NCBI GenBank assembly: GCA_009844085.1
Contig: VYCF01000024.1
Location: 186,001-250,000, forward strand
DNA from: Gammaproteobacteria bacterium
Lineage (GTDB): Bacteria; Pseudomonadota; Gammaproteobacteria; Pseudomonadales; Pseudohongiellaceae
Direction of reading: 5' to 3'
Length of the DNA: 64,000 bases
Both the position numbers and the translations under genes were made by a program. The notes beneath the pieces are model-generated. The model had not been told where the DNA came from and ran no database searches. It saw only the letters and a list, made by a program, of their open reading frames with translations. This document shows, piece by piece, positions 6,183 through 61,754 of this stretch. Numbering within the stretch: position 1 is the first letter of the stretch; the number at the start of each line of letters is the position of its first letter.

Positions 6183-6959
6183 TCACCACGAATAACTCAA
6201 TTGTCCCTGCAAGGCATAGTCCGCGCTGCCCTCGGTGAAGCCGCGGCCGACCAGCGCGGTCAGCGACCAGCGGGGCGATAACTGAAAGCTCACATAGGGA
6301 TAGATTTCGTGGGTTTCCCTGGCGAAAACCGCCGGAGCCTCGCGATAGTCGTAAAACGCCCCGGCGCTGGTCCGCTCCGATAGCTGCCGCGCGAAACCGA
6401 GCTGCACAAAGCTGTTGTCGTTCAATCCGGGAAACAGGTCCGTTCGGCCACGGAAATTTCGCCCGAGACTGGCAAACCAGGTCGTTTCGCCGTAAACCTG
6501 CGAAAAATCGATCTGCAGGCTGAAATCGAGTTTCCCCGTACCCAGGCTCCGATTCTCATCCGCCGTCGGCAACTTGACATCAAGGCGCAAGTCCACGAAA
6601 GGCGCCCAGTCCGCAATTGGATCCAGCGCATAACTGATTCCGGCTATCGTGTCGCCGAATCCCGCCTCGGTAGTGACTTCGGAACCGGCGATGGCCCTGG
6701 TCACTTCGCCGATATTTACCAGCACGTTTCCGACGCCGGTTACCGACAGGCCCGCCGTCAGCAACTGGAATCCCCAGCGCTCTCCCTGCCATTGGTAGCC
6801 GATTGGAAGATAGCGGATCGTTGTGTCGGAATGCCCGTTGAACTTGCCTTCGGCGAAATAGGCGCCAAGGTTCAGCCTATGTTCCGGCTGCTGGGCGCAC
6901 GCGACCGCGGGCAGGATCAGAGCCCATAGCGGGGCCCATACCAGATAAGCGCTTCTCAC
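6183..6959 (-). CDS. Beta-barrel outer-membrane protein
   Basis: From a GTG at 6959 that overlaps the msrB stop (GTGA), the 258-residue product begins with a signal peptide ([18 protein letters not shown], cleavage near residue 20). Alternating hydrophobic beta-strands and a C-terminal aromatic residue (LQGQLSYSW) are typical of outer-membrane barrels; the pattern resembles Phenol_MetA_deg-type barrels. The frame stays open into msrB, but that extension is msrB read in another frame and has no signal peptide at its start. It probably shares the msrB transcript. Cargo is unknown. Confidence 0.75.
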
Positions 6960-7354
6960 TGCCGCTTCTGGAAATCGAGCGCGGCGGAGTTGATGCAATA
7001 ACGTAACCCGGTTTCGGGCGGGCCGTCGGAAAAAACATGGCCCAGATGGGAATCGCAACGGCTGCAGGTGACTTCGGTGCGAATCATGCCATGGGACTGA
7101 TCGAGTTTCTCCTCGACCGAGGCCTGTTCGGCGGGGGCGCTGAAGCTCGGCCAGCCCGAACCCGAGTCGTATTTGTCCTCGGACTTGAACAGTTCCTCGC
7201 CGCAGGCCGCGCACAGGTAAGTCCCCGTTTCCTTGCTGGCCCAGTACCGGCCCGTGAACGCCATCTCGGTGCCCTTTTCGCGGGTGACCCTGTATACGTC
7301 GGGCGCCAGCTCCTCGCGCCATTGTTCGTCCGATTTCTCAATCTTTCCTTTCAT
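6956..7354 (-). CDS. msrB: Peptide methionine (R)-S-oxide reductase MsrB
   Basis: MsrB reduces the R-epimer of methionine sulfoxide in proteins. The product is 132 aa from the ATG at 7354 (preceded by GGGGGTCAGG). It has two zinc-binding CxxC pairs (CAAC and CSRC), the GSGWPSF motif and the catalytic Cys in RYCINSAAL. The frame is open about 90 codons further upstream, but that part is Pro/Ala/His-rich, lies in the intergenic region facing alaA and is not conserved. Its stop overlaps the start of the barrel gene. Confidence 0.95.
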
Positions 7355-7433
7355 CCTGACCCCCTTGCTCACCCCCACAGAACAATTATCGGCTGAAGCC
7401 GGAACTTGCTTCAAGTTGACTCGGAATTGTGGC

Positions 7434-7458
7434 TTGACAGCGTATGTAGGGGTAAGTA
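7434..7458 (+). promoter_or_regulatory. Possible sigma-70 promoter for alaA
   Basis: A perfect TTGACA at 7434-7439 sits 53 bp before the alaA start. The best -10 is a weak TAAGTA at 7453-7458 or TAACGT at 7457-7462. A second -35-like TTGACT lies at 7416-7421. Only the -35 is convincing. Confidence 0.3.
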
Positions 7459-7491
7459 ACGTCCGCGGCTTTTGGATTTGGGCGCATTCTG

Positions 7492-8709
7492 ATGCAGAGA
7501 ATTGAGCAATCGCACAAGCTGGACAATGTCTGTTATGACATTCGTGGGCCTGTGCTGGAGCAGGCGCGGCGGCTGGAGGAGGATGGGCACCGGATTCTGA
7601 AACTGAATATCGGCAATCCGGCGGCATTCGGTTTCGATGCGCCGGACGAGATTCTGCACGACGTGATCCACAATCTCGCGAACGCCCAGGGTTACAGCGA
7701 TTCGAAGGGCCTGTTCCCCGCCCGCAAGGCCATCATGCACGAATGCCAGCAATTGCGGATCGGCGGGGTCGGGATCGAGGATATTTATCTCGGCAACGGG
7801 GTGAGCGAACTGATCACCATGGCGATGCAGGCGCTGCTCAACGATGGCGAGGAAGTGCTGATTCCGGCGCCGGACTATCCGCTGTGGACGGCGGCGGTCA
7901 GCCTTGGGGGCGGCGTGCCGGTGCATTACCGCTGCGACGAAGAACGGCTATGGTTTCCGGACACGGCGGACATCGAGGCCAGGATCACGCCGCGAACGCG
8001 GGCGCTGGTCATTATCAATCCGAACAATCCGACGGGCGCGGTTTACAGCAGGGAGATTCTGCTTGAGTTGGTCGAGATTGCGCGGCGGCATGAACTGATC
8101 CTGTTCGCCGACGAGATCTACAGCAAGATCGTTTACGACGGCGCCGAGTACATCCCGCTGGCTTCGCTGTGCGACGATCTCTTCATCGTCACTTTCAACG
8201 GCCTGTCGAAATCCTACCGTCTCGCCGGATTTCGTTCCGGCTGGATGATCCTGAGCGGGCCGAAGGAACTCGCAAGCAGTTATATCGAGGGGCTGGACAT
8301 ACTTTCCAACATGCGTTTGTGCGCCAATGTGCCCGCACAATTCGCCATACAGACCGCGCTCGGCGGATACCAGAGCATCAACGAACTGATTCTGCCGGGC
8401 GGGCGGCTTGCGCGGCAAAGAGACGCCGCCCTGGAAATGCTCAATGAAATTCCCGGGCTGAACTGCGTCAAGCCCTCCGGAGCGATTTACCTGTTTCCGG
8501 GACTTGATCCGGATCATTTCACCATCGGCAGCGACCTTGATCTCGTACTGGACATTCTGCTGCGGGAAAAAATCCTGCTGGTGCAAGGCAGCGCCTTCAA
8601 CAATCCGGGTTCCCGGCATTTCCGGCTGGTCTTCCTGCCGCATGAAGACGAGATGCAGGCGGCCATCGCCGCGGTCGCCCGGGTGCTCGACGACTATCGT
8701 ACCGGCTGA
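7492..8709 (+). CDS. alaA: Alanine-synthesising aminotransferase AlaA (YfbQ type)
   Basis: This fold-type-I PLP aminotransferase is expected to make alanine from pyruvate and glutamate. At 405 residues it matches E. coli AlaA in length. Visible motifs are the substrate/PLP loop NPNNPTG (176-182), [10 protein letters not shown] around 207-216, the Schiff-base Lys240 in [17 protein letters not shown], and a C-terminal FRLVFLP that carries the carboxylate-binding Arg. It is divergent from msrB and its 3' end overlaps convergent pdxB by 16 bp. Confidence 0.93.
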
Positions 8710-53541: not shown

Positions 53542-53648
53542 ATGAGCCTCACCAAGTTGACCAATTATGTTACCATGCCGCGAAAATTTGAGTCTAGACC
53601 AGATTTTAATAGAAGCGCTCTCTCGCAAACTCTTCTGAGAAGTGAATA

Positions 53649-53663
53649 GTCGGTAACACCGAC
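53649..53663 (+). repeat. Small hairpin before the accessory membrane-protein gene
   Basis: GTCGGT-AAC-ACCGAC is a perfect 6-bp hairpin 19 bp upstream of the ATG at 53683, just before the AGGA ribosome-binding site. It could modulate translation. The rest of 53542-53682 shows no clear promoter. Confidence 0.35.
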
Positions 53664-53682
53664 AAAGGATAGGAATAAATTT

Positions 53683-54246
53683 ATGATCAATGTACCTGTT
53701 GTTATAGCTGCCGGTACAATTGGCGCGTTCATTTCAGGCCTTATTGGATTTCTAAGTTTGATAATTAGTAAGGATCAAAAAGTTTCTGAATTTCGTCAAT
53801 TATGGATTGATGGTCTTCGCAAAGATGTATCAATATTCATTTCATACATATATGCCAAAGTTGGACTTCAAGTCAAAGGTGTCATAGAAGATTCTACAGA
53901 GGATTCGCAAATTATAAGTTCAGACATTTTTCATGCAAGCAAGGCCGCATCAAGAATTCGACTAAGACTAAATCGCAAAGAAAATGAATCCGATAGTATT
54001 CTGAAAAAAATATCGAAAATTGAAGAATTGAGTAGTTTTGGTTTAATTCCCGACACTGACGAAATTGTTAGTGAAGTGAACGAACTCGTCCAGCTTACGC
54101 AAGATTTACTAAAGAATGAGTGGAAAAGAGTTAAACGTGGAGAATTAACCTATCTGATTGCAAAGTGGTTGGCGATAGTCTTCCTTATTTGTGCGATGAT
54201 TATTCCTTTTATCCTCCATCATAAAGGAGTTCTAAATTTTGTGTGA
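53683..54246 (+). CDS. Hypothetical two-transmembrane protein at the edge of the accessory block
   Basis: This 187-aa protein has an N-terminal membrane segment (about 5-28, [23 protein letters not shown]), a long charged helical middle (30-155) and a C-terminal segment (about 160-182, [17 protein letters not shown]). Codon use is strongly AT-rich, unlike nadA next to it. It is convergent with the six-gene operon and could be a membrane effector or an unrelated passenger. I do not recognise a family. Confidence 0.65.
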
Positions 54247-54293
54247 AAATTTATAATTCCAGGTTAAGGAAGAATTAACTTGCACTCTATAAA

Positions 54294-55322
54294 TTACCTT
54301 ACGGTAAAAGCTGGATGATTTGATGAAGGCTGGGCATACGCATCACTTATTAAGCTATTGACTGCTACAGCCAAATCTACGCCATGACTTCTTGTGTTAT
54401 CTGTTACAATTTTCTTAGCACCGGTCGCTCTTATGTATTCAATCGTACCTTCAAAATCAGCGTGGTTGGTTAGCGCTACTCCGAAGGCCTTCTCAGAATA
54501 CTCAACAACTGGATTGTCAGGCTTCGTCATGAAAGCACTACAGGAAATGCTAGTTCCTTCAATGAGCTCGTTTCGGAATCCATCGCCTTTAGCGTAGAGT
54601 CGAACATATGACTTACCATTTAGGGCAACTCGCCCTTTTTCTGAATCAGTACTGGTGACAGACCCTAAAGCGAAGCCATTAGCCTGATACACTGAAATTT
54701 CACTGATTAGTCTCTTGCTTCCCAAGATTGGAACCCCAATGTTGGCGGACAATATATGTAGAACCCGCTCTATAGTCCCTCTATGGGCATGAATATGTAC
54801 GGAACCATGACGAAGTCTTTGACTAACGATTTCGAGTAGACAACTTTCGGCCTCTCCTTGTGAGTACTTGCGGATGCTCGCTGAGCTCCCATAAGTACTA
54901 TCTACGACAAGTTCATCGACTTGAATCACATCGTTTATAGGCCATGAGAAATCCCCAGAATACCCACAACGAAGTCCGTCCGGGTATTCCACTACAACTT
55001 GGGTGGAACCCAGCATATGTCCTGATCTAACGAATGTGAGCTTTGTTCCATCCTCCAATTCTTTCTCTTCGCCCCAACCGAGTGAAATTATATTATCTCG
55101 ATATTCAATGTCGGCGTTCAGTTCTGCTATCAGGAGCGCCTTGGTTTCCCTACTCATGAAAATATCTTGCAGGCCTTTGCTTCTGTTAAAATCTCCCATG
55201 TGATCGTCATGGATGTGTGTCTGTACGCGAAAATCAAAGCCTTCTGCGTAACCGTCACAAACCAGATTAGTTCCAAGGCGTACGGCGCCATTGTCAAATA
55301 CGTCAACTCTCAGATGATCCAT
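54294..55322 (-). CDS. Beta-CASP metallo-beta-lactamase-fold nuclease
   Basis: The 342-aa protein has the metal motif HIHDDH (36-41), His102 in SGHMLGS, Asp124 in SGDFSW, the CPSF-like DSTYGS (141-146) and a late motif NHADF (His287). These are hallmarks of beta-CASP nucleases that process RNA or DNA ends (CPSF73/SNM1-related). The beta-CASP insert is short. It is the last gene of the operon; its start overlaps the preceding gene by 20 bp and has GGAGA upstream. Whether the substrate is DNA or RNA is unknown. Confidence 0.8.
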   Translation of the reverse strand: MDHLRVDVFDNGAVRLGTNLVCDGYAEGFDFRVQTHIHDDHMGDFNRSKGLQDIFMSRETKALLIAELNADIEYRDNIISLGWGEEKELEDGTKLTFVRSGHMLGSTQVVVEYPDGLRCGYSGDFSWPINDVIQVDELVVDSTYGSSASIRKYSQGEAESCLLEIVSQRLRHGSVHIHAHRGTIERVLHILSANIGVPILGSKRLISEISVYQANGFALGSVTSTDSEKGRVALNGKSYVRLYAKGDGFRNELIEGTSISCSAFMTKPDNPVVEYSEKAFGVALTNHADFEGTIEYIRATGAKKIVTDNTRSHGVDLAVAVNSLISDAYAQPSSNHPAFTVR

Positions 55323-56025
55323 TCTCCAATGCCTTTGCTACGAGCGCTCTGATCCTTGCCTCTATATTTTCTTTACCAATTTCTAACATTGAGGCATTAA
55401 AGTCCTCGTTACCCACAAGCGTAAATAGCTTAGGGCCGAGACGACCGGTCGCACTTCTAATTCCTAAATTTACTATTGCGGAAGTCAAAATTGAATCTCT
55501 GGCAGATTGGGTCTTCTGTGCCAAAATCGATTCGCTTTCTGTAGACATCGATCCAACAAACACAAACCGCTTTGTGACCTGTTTCCGCATACCAAGCACT
55601 TCATTTAAACATTCACGGATGGTCTTTTCTGATCGATTTCGGAGTTGCGCTATTTGCCGGACTTCTTTACTTGTTAGTCCGTCTGACATTATAGCCTCAG
55701 CGACAATGCGTTGCTCCTTATCATCATTTAGTTTTGTTAGCTCGAACGCAGCTGTGAATCCTAGAAAACTCTTATCCGCACCCCATCCTACTAAATGTCG
55801 TAAATCTTCCGGAAGATTGAGGATGGTTAAGAATCTACCTATATGCCCAACACCGTCGAGTTGGATAGCTTTAGCACAGTCTTGGAGGGACATACCTTCC
55901 GAGCGAGCCTTTTGCAGAAGTTCTCCCACTTCAATTGGTGATAGAGGGCGCCCCTTCTTGTGTGTCCCATATCCGAGAGACATACGAAGGCGACCAAGTT
56001 CCAATGCATTTAGCCCAGCAAGCAT
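55303..56025 (-). CDS. ParB-like HTH protein lacking the ParB/sulfiredoxin nuclease domain
   Basis: The 240-aa protein resembles the central HTH part of ParB/Spo0J: LSPIEVGELLQKARSEGMSL, a helix-turn-helix (about 45-72), and NLPEDLRHLVGWG, followed by a second helical region to about 150. The N-terminal part that binds CTP in ParB is missing. The last 90 residues are unassigned. It follows the canonical parB by 3 bp and probably acts with it as a DNA-binding partner. The genes are not near-identical duplicates. Confidence 0.6.
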   Translation of the reverse strand: MLAGLNALELGRLRMSLGYGTHKKGRPLSPIEVGELLQKARSEGMSLQDCAKAIQLDGVGHIGRFLTILNLPEDLRHLVGWGADKSFLGFTAAFELTKLNDDKEQRIVAEAIMSDGLTSKEVRQIAQLRNRSEKTIRECLNEVLGMRKQVTKRFVFVGSMSTESESILAQKTQSARDSILTSAIVNLGIRSATGRLGPKLFTLVGNEDFNASMLEIGKENIEARIRALVAKALENGSSES

Positions 56026-56028
56026 ACT

Positions 56029-56856
56029 TTAACCACCTTCCAAGGCTCCACGATCAACTAAGGCTTCTTCGATTAGCAGGGCCACTGTTTCATCCTGATT
56101 CGCCCCTTCTTCCTTGGCCACTTGCTGAATAGCCGCATGAACGTTTTGAGTAACGGTTGCAATCACTTGGACTACCTTTGATCCTGTTTTTGCTTGTTCA
56201 ATGACTTCATCAACATTACGATCGGGGTTGTCCTTAATTGCTTCAATTACTTTTTTCCGTTGGACTCCGCTCATAGGGGCTGTCTCCTTGGCTAGTTGAA
56301 CAGCAACCTCCGGGTTAACAACCCCTTCGTCATCGCTCGCAGCATCTTGTGCCTTTACCGCCACATTTACATCAACGACACCCTCATCAACCAGATCTTT
56401 CAGATCTTTGATCAGCCTGGGATACTTAATGTATTCGGAGACCTTGCTTCTTGGCAGACCGGTGGTTTCTACCACTTCTTTGACAGTCCCATAAAAATTG
56501 TATAAGACATTCACCCCATCCTTCAGTTCCTTTCCAGTAAGCTGCCGTCGAATCAAGTTTTCTGTTATGGAGATGGCCTTCGCTTGTCCCTCGTCGACCC
56601 GCTCATCCAGTACAGCTGCGGAAATTTTTTCCTTCCCCAAGTGTTTATGGGCCAAAAAACGTCTTTGCCCAGTTAGAATCTCCCACTTACCTTCCTCACG
56701 GGCTTGGCAAACGACGATGGGTTGCAACAGACCTTGAATTTCAATGCTTCTTGCTAACTCATCTATCTCTTGTCCAGTGTTTTGCGTACGAACTTGCCCC
56801 TTGCCGATAACCATATCATCCAAGGGAATTTCACGATACTCCACGATTTTTGCCAT
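56029..56856 (-). CDS. ParB/Spo0J-family protein
   Basis: The 275-aa protein has the ParB N-terminal fold (MAKIVEYREIPLDDMVIG), the nucleotide-binding motif LTGQRRFLAHKHLG (61-74) and ITENLIRRQLT (97-107), then an HTH domain (about 110-155, with VVETTGLPRSKVSEYI). No ParA accompanies it, so plasmid partition is unlikely. In this operon it may be a site-specific DNA-loading clamp or nuclease component. It is 4 bp downstream of the SNF2 gene. Confidence 0.85.
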   Translation of the reverse strand: MAKIVEYREIPLDDMVIGKGQVRTQNTGQEIDELARSIEIQGLLQPIVVCQAREEGKWEILTGQRRFLAHKHLGKEKISAAVLDERVDEGQAKAISITENLIRRQLTGKELKDGVNVLYNFYGTVKEVVETTGLPRSKVSEYIKYPRLIKDLKDLVDEGVVDVNVAVKAQDAASDDEGVVNPEVAVQLAKETAPMSGVQRKKVIEAIKDNPDRNVDEVIEQAKTGSKVVQVIATVTQNVHAAIQQVAKEEGANQDETVALLIEEALVDRGALEGG

Positions 56857-56860
56857 TTCC

Positions 56861-58252
56861 TTAATTTTCCTCCTGCCTTTCTGTAGTTGAATTCATGCCA
56901 CTTTCGGAAAGTTCGAGAATATACATCAATTCCTTTACGGAGAAACCGCGAGAAGCGGTTTCCACGGATTCGACAATATCGCTGAACATTTCCTCTTTGC
57001 TACCCAAAATGCTAGCTATACGTTCTTCGATCGTATCAACAACCAAAAATCGAACAACATGAAGCGGATCTTCCCGATCAAACCTATGTGCTCGGTAAAT
57101 CGCTTGCATCTCGACAGCTGGGTTCCACCATCTGTCAAACATTACAACGTGCGTCGCCTCTCCCAGATTCAATCCCACGCCACCGGCCCTCAACGATATG
57201 AACAGGATTCGGGGTGACCTGCCAGTTTTGAAGCTCTCTATGGCATTCTGCCGCTCATCAATCGACATTGAGCCCGTTATGAAATCGCAAGGAATGCTAA
57301 TCTGCTGAGAAAGCCATTTCAAGGTCTCGACGAACTGCGAAAAAACCAGCACTCGAGCGTTTGCCCCCATGCCCTCGCAAAGCTCCTTCAAAGCATCCAG
57401 TTTGGACGATTTATTGGTCTCGGAGTCAAAATTGCACACAATCTTAAGGCGAGTTATCAACCCAAGCAATACAGCCGCAGGGCTCTCGGCGTCTGTACCG
57501 ACGGCATTCTTTCGCTCCATCCATAGTTGATCGTAGGCAACTTTTTGTGAAGATAGTAACTCTAGCTTCATGTCCTGAATGATGACAGGAGGAAGTTCCC
57601 CTCTGACCTCACGTTTCCTTCTACGCAGCATCATTGAACTTAGCATGGACGAAAGTTGCGTACTTGAGAGGTCCGTTGGTAAGGATGGATTCAGAAATCC
57701 AAGAATTGAGGCCACATCCTCCGCGTCGTTCTCTAGGGGAGTGGCAGATAGGGCCCAAGAGTGCTTTCGAGGGAGTAATCGACAGGCTAACGATGTTCGG
57801 GAGTACTTGTTCTTTATGCGCTGGGCTTCGTCAAGAATTACTATGTCAAACGTGTTGGCTGGAATCCGGTCAAGACCGTCTTTTCTGATTTGTTCATAGG
57901 AGCCAACCAAAACTGGAACAGGGAGCATGTATAGAGCTTCGCGATCACTGATAGTTCCTTGCAGGCGTCGAACCGCGAGTGATGGAGCCCATATGTCCAG
58001 TTCCGCCATCCAATTGGTAATCAGCGATGCAGGGGCAACGATGAGTGAACGCCTGATATCATTTTTTGCGTTCAACAAGAGGGCCAGGGCAACTGAGGCC
58101 TGGACCGTCTTACCCAAGCCCATTTCGTCAGCAAGCAGCGCTGCACTTGAACGAAAGAGGAAGGAAACGCCTTCCCATTGGTAGTCGTGTAACCTACTCG
58201 GGACACCGAGCATGTCCTCAGCGTGGTGTCGAAGTTCCAATATCTCGTTCAT
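56861..58252 (-). CDS. Minimal SNF2-family DNA translocase/helicase
   Basis: The 463-aa protein contains little beyond the two RecA-like lobes: motif I DEMGLGKT (42-49), motif II DEAQ, motif III SATPLEN, motif V SLRAGGVGLNL and motif VI IYRAHRFDR. No extra nuclease or zinc domain is present. SNF2 proteins translocate on duplex DNA and occur in many restriction and defence systems. It is 21 bp downstream of the DUF262 gene and 4 bp before parB. Confidence 0.9.
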   Translation of the reverse strand: MNEILELRHHAEDMLGVPSRLHDYQWEGVSFLFRSSAALLADEMGLGKTVQASVALALLLNAKNDIRRSLIVAPASLITNWMAELDIWAPSLAVRRLQGTISDREALYMLPVPVLVGSYEQIRKDGLDRIPANTFDIVILDEAQRIKNKYSRTSLACRLLPRKHSWALSATPLENDAEDVASILGFLNPSLPTDLSSTQLSSMLSSMMLRRRKREVRGELPPVIIQDMKLELLSSQKVAYDQLWMERKNAVGTDAESPAAVLLGLITRLKIVCNFDSETNKSSKLDALKELCEGMGANARVLVFSQFVETLKWLSQQISIPCDFITGSMSIDERQNAIESFKTGRSPRILFISLRAGGVGLNLGEATHVVMFDRWWNPAVEMQAIYRAHRFDREDPLHVVRFLVVDTIEERIASILGSKEEMFSDIVESVETASRGFSVKELMYILELSESGMNSTTERQEEN

Positions 58253-58273
58253 CCGACTCGGCTCTGTTGGTAG

Positions 58274-60040
58274 CTACGCTTTACCTGGGGAAAATTGCCA
58301 CACTGATGCAGCCTCCTTTGCAAGTGCCTTGGATCTCTTCTCGATGACCTTTGGTGTCCATTCCTCGTGGCTCTCAGCGACTGTTCTGGGCATCTGTAAC
58401 GTACTATTCTCGTACAACTGCGCTTTGGCCTGAAAACTTTTGTTAAATTCTTCGCTGGATCGATTTTCCCTTCTAGTCAGAATCACCATATTGCCGGTGC
58501 GATAGATGCATTCCTTTGCGCTTTCCTCCGAAAATGCCTTCCAATCAGACCAGTATTGATCGGATTGCGGCAGTACATGCTCAACAGTGCAGTGATCTCG
58601 CCTCAAAATCTCAGAACCAACCTGAAGTTTGGAGTTAATGCCAAATAAGAATCGTAGTGCTTTGGCATTGGTGCGTATTTCCATGTCTGTCATTCGGCGG
58701 ATAAATCTTGCATTGTCAATCACTTCATATTCGTCCGTTCCAGCTAGCTCCTCATAGATATCGAGCGATTGCAAATCAGTTCCCTTGAAAACATCCATGG
58801 CAAAATTAGAAAACGCTGCTTCGAATTTGGAGGGTTCAAACTTGGAAGCCACGAAAGTGGTCCTCATCACGAATGAAGTGAGATTTTTTAGGCTACGAGC
58901 CACCACCAAGCCAACCTTACGTTTCGCCTCTTTATCCTTTTCTTCAAGGAATCGATGCAACAGAGCGAACACCAAGGGTTGAGTCACCTTATAGTCCTTG
59001 AGCTCGCTGAGCAAAACAGTAACGTCTCTATAGCCGGTGGTCTTGGGAAGGTTCGTATTTATTACCGCATCCGGTCTCGAAGACGTAAGTGTCCGAAACA
59101 GTTGCATGCTCTCTTGCTTACCCAGTCCGGCGATGAGTCGGTATACGTAGCTCGATGGATCATTTTGTCCAGCAGCTCTTTCTACTTTTTGTCTGGCTTC
59201 TCTATAGAACCTGTTCTTCTGTAGATATCCATACTTGCATTGCAAATAGCATCGGAAATATTCCTGCACATTGCTTGGCCCTAAAACTACGGCTGGCGAC
59301 TCTAGTCTTTCATGGACAGTCTCCCGGCGGTTAGGGTCGTACTGGTCAGAAAAATACGAATACAATCGATTACGGATCAAATCGACATCGTCTAGGGGTT
59401 TGCCGCGGGCATTCAGTGATTCGAATACTGAATTCGCATCCACATCACCGGGCACTTCGAGCATCGACACCTCAACATTTTGCATAACAAAATCTGAAAA
59501 GCTCTCGATTGTTCGTCGATCCATTGCTCCTACGAACATATCGATTACATCCCACGCGGATGTGAGTGCCCCATTGGTTCCAATATCGTGACCTCGAATC
59601 AATTGCTGATATGTGGATTTGTTTCGCCTTGGAGGCTCAATTCTTGGCTTGTACTTGGCAGCGTCAGACAGCTTGAGTATGTGGTAATCAGGCTCGTCAA
59701 ACAAGGCACGTAGTCCACGTGTCTCTCTCGCACTATCTGGAGGCAGCATCTTTTCAAAACGACGGCAGAGGGCGGCGATCAGTAAAGACAGTGTTATGAG
59801 TCGTTGTTGTCCATCATTGATCCTTAGCGAAGGTGTCGAGTTCGACTTGACGAGCATTATCGAACCAACGAAATAACATGCTTTATCGGCCTCCGCCGCG
59901 TCGTGCAGGTCGGTCAGCAGTTCACCAACTTGCTCTACCTTCCAGTCATAGTAGCGCTGATGCCAAGGGACAGTGAAGCATCCCGAACACAGGACTTCTG
60001 ACACGAGGCGAACCTCGGATGTGATCTTTGTCTTGCTCAA
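58274..60040 (-). CDS. DUF262-DUF1524 protein (SspE/GmrSD-like nuclease architecture)
   Basis: The 588-aa protein has the DUF262 ParB-like signature VPWHQRYYDW (24-33) and NDGQQRLITL (75-84). The C-terminal DUF1524 HNH-like region runs from about 483 to 545 (VEHVLPQ, then GNMVILTRREN). This is the architecture of GmrSD type IV enzymes and of SspE, which senses phosphorothioate DNA. It lies 23 bp downstream of the DndC-like gene. I infer a modification-dependent or modification-inhibited nuclease. Confidence 0.82.
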   Translation of the reverse strand: MSKTKITSEVRLVSEVLCSGCFTVPWHQRYYDWKVEQVGELLTDLHDAAEADKACYFVGSIMLVKSNSTPSLRINDGQQRLITLSLLIAALCRRFEKMLPPDSARETRGLRALFDEPDYHILKLSDAAKYKPRIEPPRRNKSTYQQLIRGHDIGTNGALTSAWDVIDMFVGAMDRRTIESFSDFVMQNVEVSMLEVPGDVDANSVFESLNARGKPLDDVDLIRNRLYSYFSDQYDPNRRETVHERLESPAVVLGPSNVQEYFRCYLQCKYGYLQKNRFYREARQKVERAAGQNDPSSYVYRLIAGLGKQESMQLFRTLTSSRPDAVINTNLPKTTGYRDVTVLLSELKDYKVTQPLVFALLHRFLEEKDKEAKRKVGLVVARSLKNLTSFVMRTTFVASKFEPSKFEAAFSNFAMDVFKGTDLQSLDIYEELAGTDEYEVIDNARFIRRMTDMEIRTNAKALRFLFGINSKLQVGSEILRRDHCTVEHVLPQSDQYWSDWKAFSEESAKECIYRTGNMVILTRRENRSSEEFNKSFQAKAQLYENSTLQMPRTVAESHEEWTPKVIEKRSKALAKEAASVWQFSPGKA

Positions 60041-60063
60041 TGGATCGTCCTTGTCAACTGCAA

Positions 60064-61227
60064 TTAAACAACGGCTTCAAGGCTGCGATGCAATGCCTGG
60101 CGCGCATCTTCTTTGATCTCGTCTCTCCACCATACGTCTTCGATACAATCGATCTCGGCCGGCAGAATCAACTGCTCGCCTATCTCCGATTCCAGCTCCC
60201 TCAGCTTGTTGAGAATCAGCTTGCGAACTTCAAGTTTGAATGGTCCCAGGATTGGGCTCCCGTCCTCGCGATATTCGACATTTCCGTTTCGTCGCACAGG
60301 CAATCGATTTTCCTTGTCTTCCCTAAGTTCCAACAGCCACTCTCTAAAATCGAATAGTGCTTCCAATTTGTCGGTTTCACCGTGGCCGGAGTCTATCAGC
60401 CCTTTGAGGCTCCGGTCCTTCTGGACAACAGTACAGGTCCAGCAGCCAAATCGTGGCGACGTGCTGCCGCAGGAAGGAGCCTGTTCCTTCGTGACGACTA
60501 AAGGACACTCCCCTCCCCCCGCATTGCGATACAGGGTAATCAAGCGCCGATGGGTGCCCCCCCATGGTGGATTCCGTTGCATAAGCGTCATCCACACGTC
60601 GTTGTCTTCCAAGTCGGCCAGCGGCGCAAACATCTGGCAGCCCTCGACTAAACCTTGCGGATTCAATTTCTGGGCGGAAACACCTCGGTTGTTCATCGCG
60701 CGCCGGCGATTGTCCGACTCCGCGCGCCGCGTGCCGATCAGCAAAATGGCGCCGTTGAACTCCTGCGTGAGCCGAAGGATCAGCTTATTCGTCGGCGAGA
60801 TTTTCATCCGGTCGGTACACCAGCGAAAATTCCTGGTGGGCGGAATGTAGCCCCTCCCAATGACACTGACCCAGAAAGTCTGATCAATGCATGGCGTCGT
60901 AACTTCAGTTGAGATGGGGAGGCCCGATTTGCCCCCAGCGAGATCGATTTGGCGCAGCGAATTTCGGAGATGATTGATGACGAGCGGAGATTCCACCAGT
61001 GTATCGTTGCCTACCACCAGAACCTGGCGGCCTCTCTGCTTCAGCGGAAGCTCCGCGATGACCTCCCAGACCAGTTGTAGCAGCAGGGTAGAATCCTTGC
61101 CGCCCGAATACGCAACGATCCAAGGATAGCTATGAGCCTCCAGGTACTCGGACCGAATGACTCCTTTGATGTCCTCAAGGCGAGAGGGTAAGTCTGAGAT
61201 CGAAATGGGAACGGCTGGCTGTGTCAT
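60064..61227 (-). CDS. DndC-like PP-loop sulfurtransferase (PAPS-reductase fold, Fe-S)
   Basis: DndC/SspD proteins adenylate and help install sulfur in the DNA backbone. This 387-aa protein has the PP-loop SGGKDS (41-46), the DndC-type RWCTDRMK (Cys137), IGTRRAESDNRR (164-175) and candidate 4Fe-4S cysteines Cys241, Cys253, Cys262 and Cys265 (GCWTC). It is the first gene of the six-gene operon. No cysteine desulfurase or other Dnd/Ssp protein is in the window, so sulfur would have to come from a housekeeping IscS. It could instead modify a base or RNA. Confidence 0.85.
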   Translation of the reverse strand: MTQPAVPISISDLPSRLEDIKGVIRSEYLEAHSYPWIVAYSGGKDSTLLLQLVWEVIAELPLKQRGRQVLVVGNDTLVESPLVINHLRNSLRQIDLAGGKSGLPISTEVTTPCIDQTFWVSVIGRGYIPPTRNFRWCTDRMKISPTNKLILRLTQEFNGAILLIGTRRAESDNRRRAMNNRGVSAQKLNPQGLVEGCQMFAPLADLEDNDVWMTLMQRNPPWGGTHRRLITLYRNAGGGECPLVVTKEQAPSCGSTSPRFGCWTCTVVQKDRSLKGLIDSGHGETDKLEALFDFREWLLELREDKENRLPVRRNGNVEYREDGSPILGPFKLEVRKLILNKLRELESEIGEQLILPAEIDCIEDVWWRDEIKEDARQALHRSLEAVV

Positions 61228-61517
61228 ATCCTGTTGCGGCTCCTTTCCGCTAAATCCATGGAAACCCTGAGTGTGCGACCAAATGGTATACGCATATCTT
61301 CCGGTTAGCCATGAATCCAGAGAAAATAAATCGGCCCGCTTCTGGGAGTCTACATAACCCCGCGAAAGCTCGTCCGCTGCAACTCCGAATTGCTACCACC
61401 AACAGCATCTAGAAGGGTTATCGGCCTACACTCCGATTACTTCGATGACCCTGCGTACGGCAGGAAACTTTCAAAAACCGCCTACGCAACGTATTTCGAA
61501 ACCACGCAACGTGGGAT
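61228..61517. other. Intergenic region upstream of the DndC-like operon
   Basis: About 290 bp contain no gene I can support. On the minus strand a weak TATACC box occurs near 61286-61291, but no good -35 accompanies it. ACGCAACGT occurs twice (around 61485-61512), the second copy within a small hairpin CCACG-CAA-CGTGG. No integrase, attachment-site repeat or phage gene is visible. Confidence 0.4.
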
Positions 61518-61655
61518 CTGCACAATGTGAGTCGCCGTCGGGCTGTGGAGGGTGCAGCGGGCGTGCGAGGCAGGGATGCCGAGCCCGAAGCCTACAGGGA
61601 CGTATTTACGGCGTCCGCTGCACCCTCCACAGCCCGACGGTGACGGATCGGAGCC
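61518..61655 (+). repeat. Hairpin repeat, copy C
   Basis: This 138-bp element has perfect 26-bp inverted arms (61535-61560 with 61615-61640) around a 54-bp core containing TACAGGGACGTATT. The core is almost identical to that of copy A, and the flanks match copy B. The arms are unrelated in sequence to both except for the innermost few bases (AGCGG/CCGCT). It lies between the accessory operon and tRNA-Lys. Confidence 0.88.
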
Positions 61656-61678
61656 ACAAATCGTCAAGAAAAGGGAAG

Positions 61679-61754
61679 TGGTGGGTCGTATAGGATTCGA
61701 ACCTATGACCAAAAGGTTAAAAGCCTTCTGCTCTACCAACTGAGCTAACGACCC
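61679..61754 (-). tRNA. tRNA-Lys (anticodon TTT)
   Basis: A 76-nt cloverleaf with acceptor GGGTCGT/ACGACCC, D-arm TTAGCTCAGTTGGTAGAGC, anticodon loop CTTTTAA, T-arm ATAGGTTCGAATCCTAT, discriminator A and an encoded CCA. It lies 36 bp downstream of queC on the same strand. It is the right-hand boundary of the accessory block, but I found no copy of its 3' end at the other boundary. Confidence 0.97.

Follow-up and report, generated by a model that had tools for sequence, protein, structure and literature searches.

Gene content of the locus

The window, a stretch of 64,000 nucleotides (positions 186,001 to 250,000 of contig VYCF01000024.1, assembly GCA_009844085.1) from a gammaproteobacterium of the family Pseudohongiellaceae, carries at positions 54294-61227 of its minus strand six open reading frames (ORFs) in the order DndC, DUF262, SNF2, ParB, ParB-like (ParB2) and beta-CASP. 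Their intergenic gaps, from dndC onward, are 23, 21, 4 and 3 bp, and the final pair, ParB2 and beta-CASP, overlaps by 20 bp; the original prediction, in which the operon was proposed as a candidate new DNA-modification defence system, had described the same six ORFs on one strand, and its coordinates, gaps and overlap were all recovered. The GC content of the operon is 43-48%, compared with ~60% for the window. The genes, with the lengths of their products in amino acids (aa) and their profile matches, are as follows (HTH, helix-turn-helix).

60064..61227, minus strand: first gene, dndC-like sulfurtransferase, 387 aa; TIGR03183 335.1 bits, cut-off 290.4
58274..60040, minus strand: protein with DUF262 (GmrSD_N) and DUF1524/HNH (GmrSD_C) domains, 588 aa, TTG start; GmrSD_N 97 bits and GmrSD_C 78 bits, both over cut-off
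56861..58252, minus strand: SNF2-family ATPase/translocase, 463 aa, DEAQ box, no fused nuclease; PF00176 (SNF2-rel_dom) and PF00271 (Helicase_C)
56029..56856, minus strand: ParB/Noc-type protein, 275 aa, N-terminal CTPase-type domain and HTH; PF02195 (ParB_N) and TIGR00180 (parB_part) over cut-off
55303..56025, minus strand: ParB-like protein (ParB2), 240 aa, no N-terminal CTPase domain; HTH_ParB 21.7 bits against a cut-off of 22.6, E 2.4e-4
54294..55322, minus strand: beta-CASP metallo-beta-lactamase-fold nuclease, 342 aa; TIGR04122 and aCPSF1-like matches, below cut-off

Conservation of the six-gene set and its two modules

A search of 84,980 species genomes with the beta-CASP alignment recovered 23 loci. 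All six genes are present in 20 loci, the window included, so that the co-occurrence in other genomes for which the original prediction had asked is borne out; the order is identical in 19, and the exception (L026) has dndC and the DUF262 gene on the strand opposite to SNF2-ParB-ParB2-beta-CASP. The genes are found together in about ten phyla. By their titles, the six-gene loci belong to Gamma- and Alphaproteobacteria, Binatia, Dadabacteria, Bacteroidota/Rhodothermaceae and Acidobacteria/Thermoanaerobaculia/Holophagales; order and spacing recur in other phyla, and the 20-bp overlap of ParB2 and beta-CASP is retained in most of the loci. Wherever the flank is readable, the beta-CASP gene lies at most 10 kb from a dndC gene (29/29 loci, a count that leaves aside L014 and L066, which are cut by contig ends). 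Between close relatives, the ratio of nonsynonymous to synonymous substitution (dN/dS) is 0.035-0.13, which indicates purifying selection; two gene pairs are left out, one for saturation of dS and one for an in-frame stop codon encountered in aligning the SNF2 gene of L021. The beta-CASP-bearing system is rare, being present in 1/369 Gammaproteobacteria and, with the window counted, in 4/37 members of its genus, and in other phyla in 1/392 (Planctomycete), 1/298 (Gemmatimonadete) and 6/85 (Poribacteria). A phage or plasmid origin was considered and rejected, the beta-CASP and ParB proteins finding no match in 72,556 plasmids and the beta-CASP and DndC proteins none in viral contigs, while the viral matches of ParB are distant (29-44% identity over partial length). 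Distant beta-CASP matches at 30% identity (L065, beside another metallo-beta-lactamase gene and DUF72) were judged not to be members.

By co-evolution the operon divides into a putative writer-reader pair, DndC with a DndI-like DUF262 protein, and a module of SNF2, ParB, ParB2 and beta-CASP. In a mirror-tree comparison, in which pairwise identities were correlated across 15 non-redundant six-gene loci and are given as plain r values, DndC and DUF262 reach 0.90 and the four other proteins 0.71-0.79 among themselves, with 0.47-0.63 between the modules. The same split is seen in the opposite strands of L026 and in the separate operons found in Poribacteria.

The four-gene module beside DndC, DndD and DndE

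The second module is also found in loci of a sister architecture, in which its ParB and beta-CASP genes, usually joined by SNF2, stand with DndC-DndD-DndE; these loci come from Poribacteria, Gemmatimonadota, Planctomycetota and Acidobacteriota. Two of them, L033 (Gemmatimonadaceae) and L036 (Poribacteria), have dndD and dndE in the place of the DUF262 gene, with 503.6/550.8 bits for DndD and 91.7/92.1 bits for DndE, all above the NCBIfam cut-offs, and with a full-length DndC that is above cut-off in L033, the one checked. L033 further holds a Dnd-associated DGQHR protein and, immediately downstream, a cysteine desulfurase. In five more Poribacteria loci dndC-dndD-dndE adjoins ParB-ParB2-beta-CASP, mostly in convergent operons, SNF2 being present in L060, L062 and L063. 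L034 (Gemmataceae) carries DndB, DndC and an HNH protein, together with a fragment of DndD at the contig end. An acidobacterial locus (L064, 24-9565) is intermediate between the two architectures, bringing together DndD, DndE, a DUF262 protein of the Orf5/DndI type, SNF2, beta-CASP, ParB2 and ParB, with the C-terminal part alone of DndC at the locus edge.

The linkage of beta-CASP to dndC, together with these DndCDE-type loci, is the strongest evidence tying the module to DNA phosphorothioation, since DndC, DndD and DndE are the established machinery of this modification (PMC12193691, PMC10853773). Because SNF2-ParB-ParB2-beta-CASP also rides with complete DndCDE, the window's operon belongs with the phosphorothioation systems. 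The idea of a candidate new system is accordingly retained as far as the unmatched gene set is concerned and revised in another respect, the operon not being isolated, as its second module also travels with complete DndCDE.

A short DndC and the absence of DndD and DndE

In the window's genome (G000), DndD (TIGR03185) gives no match over cut-off, the best (70 bits) being a PbeC-type ATPase, and DndE (TIGR03184) gives no match. Across the remaining six-gene genomes tested, the two profiles exceed their cut-offs only in G064, the genome of L023, which has a complete and separate dnd locus on a different contig; G022, in which the operon is cut by the contig end, likewise has no DndD or DndE over cut-off. 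The lack of DndD and DndE that had originally been noted in the operon is therefore extended to almost all carrier genomes checked, and their being encoded elsewhere is ruled out for every six-gene carrier checked except G064. An IscS above cut-off is encoded on contig C4 of the window's genome, outside the operon.

The window's DndC is a short form, the C-terminal ~80-100 residues of canonical DndC being gone. All DndCs of the six-gene form end at about residue 436-444 of a 541-residue reference, two of them placing a couple of residues further. DndC of Escherichia coli B7A is bound by DndD via residues 433-482 and the C-terminal helix (PMC12193691); with this numbering transferred, approximately, via Pseudoalteromonas DndC (541 aa), the coverage by the six-gene DndCs is 8-24% for 433-482 and close to nil for the C-terminal helix. 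In a DndC tree they form one clade (100/99) on a long branch (1.33), next to short DndCs from Mesorhizobium and Aureimonas plasmids, and the DndC of the DndCDE form falls among canonical DndC; as the two sit apart, the second module has combined with at least two DndC lineages.

The sister lineage of the six-gene DndC is seen on rhizobial plasmids (L068 10811-21535, L069 9941-14905) as a short DndC together with a DndD-like ATPase and FtsK-type genes. Lone full-length dndC genes occur on Hymenobacter and Streptomyces plasmids (L071 8010-9353, L074 4989-6413, L078 5022-6575), with no annotated dndD or dndE within the stretch read, which hints that DndC can act without DndD and DndE or has another role.

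Domains and motifs of the six proteins

The active sites are intact. In DndC, the PP-loop SGGKDS (residues 41-46) is intact, the RFGCWTCT block is unchanged, and Cys137, 241, 253, 262 and 265 are invariant among 16 aligned orthologues. The DUF262 protein, in which DGQQR, His488 of the HNH motif and Asn533 are invariant, has its domains arranged as in SspE and DndI, and its best solved relative by sequence is DndI (9jfl), a proven phosphorothioate-sensing nickase (PMC11662687); it is a candidate reader and effector, resembling the NTPase-nickases DndI and SspE. The mark is sensed by tyrosines, Y25 in DndI and Y30/Y63 in SspE (PMC11662687, PMC13251355).

The nearest solved structure of the SNF2 protein by sequence is the SNF2/Rad54-family helicase 1z63. 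ParB can be assigned to the ParB/Noc CTPase family from the boxes of its N-domain and its HTH; the GQRR and ENLxR boxes are invariant in 21 orthologues, the predicted model matches Noc/ParB CTPase structures, and the C-terminal segment 228-268 looks like a ribbon-helix-helix. ParB2, from a weak co-linear alignment to ParB residues 100-236, looks like the HTH region of ParB alone. The beta-CASP fold is chiefly familiar from enzymes of DNA repair and of RNA 3'-end processing. The product of the sixth gene matched no Pfam family and stays, at 59.5 bits, below the cut-off of 325 for the ligase-associated exonuclease TIGR04122; its metal motif HxHxDH is invariant, and its AlphaFold2 model (mean predicted local distance difference test score 90) matches the nucleases CPSF73, SNM1/SNM1A and TTHA0252, so that on the predicted structure it is a CPSF73/SNM1-type beta-CASP nuclease with an intact metal motif.

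The families named in the original prediction stand up well to these comparisons. The DndC-type call, made from a PP-loop and a four-Cys cluster, agrees with TIGR03183 over cut-off and intact motifs; a SNF2 translocase, two ParB-type binders and a beta-CASP nuclease are confirmed by domains, motifs and the beta-CASP model. The SspE/GmrSD-type call holds for the GmrSD domains, but the protein is nearer to DndI and to PADLOC Orf5/HEC-06 than to SspE.

Genomic island, mobility and neighbouring loci

The operon lies in an island, the features of which are the following.

53629..61678, strand not applicable: AT-rich genomic island, from nadA to the 3' side of tRNA-Lys
61679-61754: tRNA-Lys, right border of the island (3' side of the tRNA)
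54312..61314, minus strand: mobile unit, blastn 82.6-82.7% over 7.0 kb to L012 and L013
61228..61333, minus strand: conserved upstream/promoter block, 89% mean identity in an alignment of four relatives

The island is an insertion, since nadA and tRNA-Lys are 8.05 kb apart in the window, whereas in G011, a congeneric genome, nadA has this tRNA-Lys and queC only ~430 bp away (L098). No integrase was seen on it. In two congeneric genomes the entire cassette sits at a chromosomal site different from the window's, and the homology stops sharply just within the beta-CASP gene and 87 bp upstream of dndC; because it covers the cassette and then ends, the six genes move as a unit. Between the operon promoter and tRNA-Lys lies a 33-nt inverted repeat (61531-61563 / 61612-61644, 94% complementary, 48-nt loop), possibly a terminator or a mobile-element remnant. 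A 187-aa protein of no family, with probable membrane segments at each end, is encoded on the plus strand at 53683-54246; a 41%-identical copy has the same place in G022 (L011 5328-5900), and as none adjoins the cassette in G018 and G033 it is probably an island passenger outside the system.

Elsewhere in the window's genome, contig C11 (L067, L085) carries PbeA and PbeC-type genes of the CxC ATPase system, with a cysteine desulfurase ~6 kb off, and contig C70 two DUF4007 (SspB-like) genes (6894-7754 and 65562-67564), one of them beside a cysteine desulfurase; no second DndC was found in this genome. Since the DUF4007 genes mark probable Ssp or type 4 BREX loci, the genome seems to hold several sulfur-mark systems.

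Proposed function and alternative explanations

We lean towards reading the whole operon as a DNA-sulfur (phosphorothioate-type) restriction-modification defence of two co-evolving modules, in which the four-gene module would find and degrade foreign DNA; the sulfur modification, the order of action, the nuclease targets and phage defence we infer from families and context. DndC would receive sulfur from the housekeeping cysteine desulfurase IscS and then mark host DNA, and the DndI-like DUF262-HNH protein would sense the mark via its NTPase domain and nick DNA that lacks it. ParB, assisted by ParB2, may load as a nucleotide-dependent clamp, SNF2 may translocate the complex on the duplex, and nicked or unmarked DNA would be degraded by beta-CASP. 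Because DndD and DndE are missing and DUF262 stands in their place, clamp and translocase may additionally present DNA to DndC; because the second module is also found with complete DndCDE, it is a general companion of DndC systems. A more specific version, which we put forward tentatively, is that of a sulfur modification-restriction free of DndD and DndE, where the ParB clamp and SNF2 replace the DNA-scanning machine and beta-CASP serves as a restriction effector alongside a DndI-like nickase whose sulfur-sensing pocket is altered.

Several observations weigh against the favoured reading. Nearly all loci come from metagenome-assembled genomes. Of the defence islands that the original prediction had proposed to look for, no dense one emerged, only a few of 97 flanking ORFs matching PADLOC. 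The second module is not rigid, since SNF2 is lacking in the DndCDE-type locus L061 and none was seen in L034. The short DndCs of the Mesorhizobium and Aureimonas plasmids are without the same C-terminal region, yet stand beside DndD-like ATPases; the absent tail alone is thus no proof of independence from DndD, and was dropped as such. Finally, in the six-gene form the sensing tyrosine of the DUF262 protein is replaced by a nearly invariant histidine, His27, so that the mark or its reading may differ.

This last substitution, flanked as it is by invariant Pro25 and Gln28, also speaks for an explanation that we consider unlikely, namely that the mark is not a canonical phosphorothioate: DndC of the short lineage would introduce a different sulfur modification, or modify other sites, with a reader changed alongside. 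The separate DndC clade with its long branch and the lack of DndD and DndE would fit such a change, but the catalytic and cluster cysteines of DndC and its RFGCWTCT block are all unchanged, the second module is common to canonical DndCDE loci, and the sensing position is still a tyrosine in L020, the sole such six-gene case. The intermediate L064 has a tyrosine there as well.

Another possibility, to which we give a little less credence still, is that the second module is itself writing machinery, its clamp and translocase scanning DNA and beta-CASP nicking it for the DndC sulfur swap in replacement of DndD and DndE, which would leave DUF262 as the sole restriction enzyme. The six-gene form indeed has no DndD and DndE, the nickase SspB of Ssp is part of the writer, and DndC and the second module also co-vary (r 0.53-0.63). 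Loci with complete DndD and DndE have the module just as well, however, so that it is not simply their replacement, and DndC co-varies most with DUF262.

A cassette for DNA repair, genome maintenance or RNA processing, rather than defence, appears distinctly improbable. Among the relatives of beta-CASP are the repair exonuclease associated with ligase (TIGR04122) and RNA nucleases of the CPSF type, and ParB, SNF2 and metallo-beta-lactamase proteins each have housekeeping relatives; against this stand the patchy, mobile distribution within Gammaproteobacteria and the genus, the strict link to dndC, the presence of a DUF262-HNH nickase, and the fact that no constant repair pathway fits. A chance cluster of unrelated island genes, for which the position on an AT-rich island at a tRNA could speak, is refuted for practical purposes by the recurrence of the set in 19 further loci, where order and 20-bp overlap are mostly kept, and by purifying selection.

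Comparison with known systems

With Dnd (DndABCDE and DndFGH) the operon shares DndC, and its sister loci add DndD and DndE, some of them also DndB and a desulfurase resembling DndA; the window's form differs in its short DndC, in lacking DndD, DndE, DndB and DndFGH (no DndF, DndG or DndH among the seven window proteins scanned with profiles) and in adding SNF2-ParB-ParB2-beta-CASP. The IscS-DndBCDE-DndI system (PMC11662687), with its DUF262 protein like PADLOC Orf5/HEC-06, is similar in that a DUF262-HNH nickase works with a DndC-based writer, DGQQR and HNH being intact here; unlike it, the DUF262 gene of the window lies within the dndC operon and not with dndFGH, DndI needs DndBCDE, and DndI Tyr25 corresponds to His27.

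SspABCD-SspE likewise joins a PP-loop sulfurtransferase to a DUF262-HNH effector, but the sulfurtransferase here is DndC and not SspD, and the DUF262 protein has ~590 aa versus ~770. None of SspA, SspB (DUF4007) and SspC is in the operon, SspC not having been searched for genome-wide. SspB was rejected as a hidden partner, since DUF4007 occurs elsewhere in just 7/21 carrier genomes, the window's included, and is therefore no constant partner. Type 4 BREX has a PAPS-reductase-type enzyme within a multi-gene defence cluster; the operon differs in having no PglZ, BrxL, BrxC or DUF4007 (PADLOC), and its enzyme is DndC, not BrxP (36 bits). In DndCDEA-PbeABCD, the CxC ATPase system, a helicase-type ATPase also accompanies DndC, and the CxC ATPase, the HKD nuclease-helicase and the small protein are absent from the operon. 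Dpd, Zorya and DISARM share the SNF2 ATPase domain, which is here a minimal 463-aa protein without their fused domains, and their other genes are absent.

Because the defining genes were tested and are absent, the operon is not assigned to Dnd, Ssp, BREX or Pbe, in line with the earlier view that it lacks the partner genes of Dnd, Ssp and BREX. The further statement that it matches no system that can be named agrees with its absence from every PADLOC-DB system and every paper searched; the full-text literature covered (without supplementary files, preprints and subscription papers) holds no description of the six-gene combination. A 2024 Dnd survey, in its main text, lists HKD, HNH, REase, NERD, URI, HEPN and PIN nucleases and DndB, and there no beta-CASP, lactamase, DUF262 or ParB-SNF2 module (PMC10853773). 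We regard the six-gene set as a putative sulfur-mark defence assembled from new parts, of which the ParB clamp, the minimal SNF2 motor and the beta-CASP nuclease are unreported for such systems in the papers searched. Sponge metagenomes have been found to be enriched in phosphorothioation genes that are seemingly "not functionally complete" (PMC5099237), and the six-gene form may explain this puzzle, as a DndC without DndD and DndE would look incomplete. If the proposed function is true, the operon would be, after Dnd and Ssp, the third way in which DNA is marked with sulfur, and would make testable both the need of DndC for DndD and DndE and the use of ParB-type clamps as DNA scanners in restriction.

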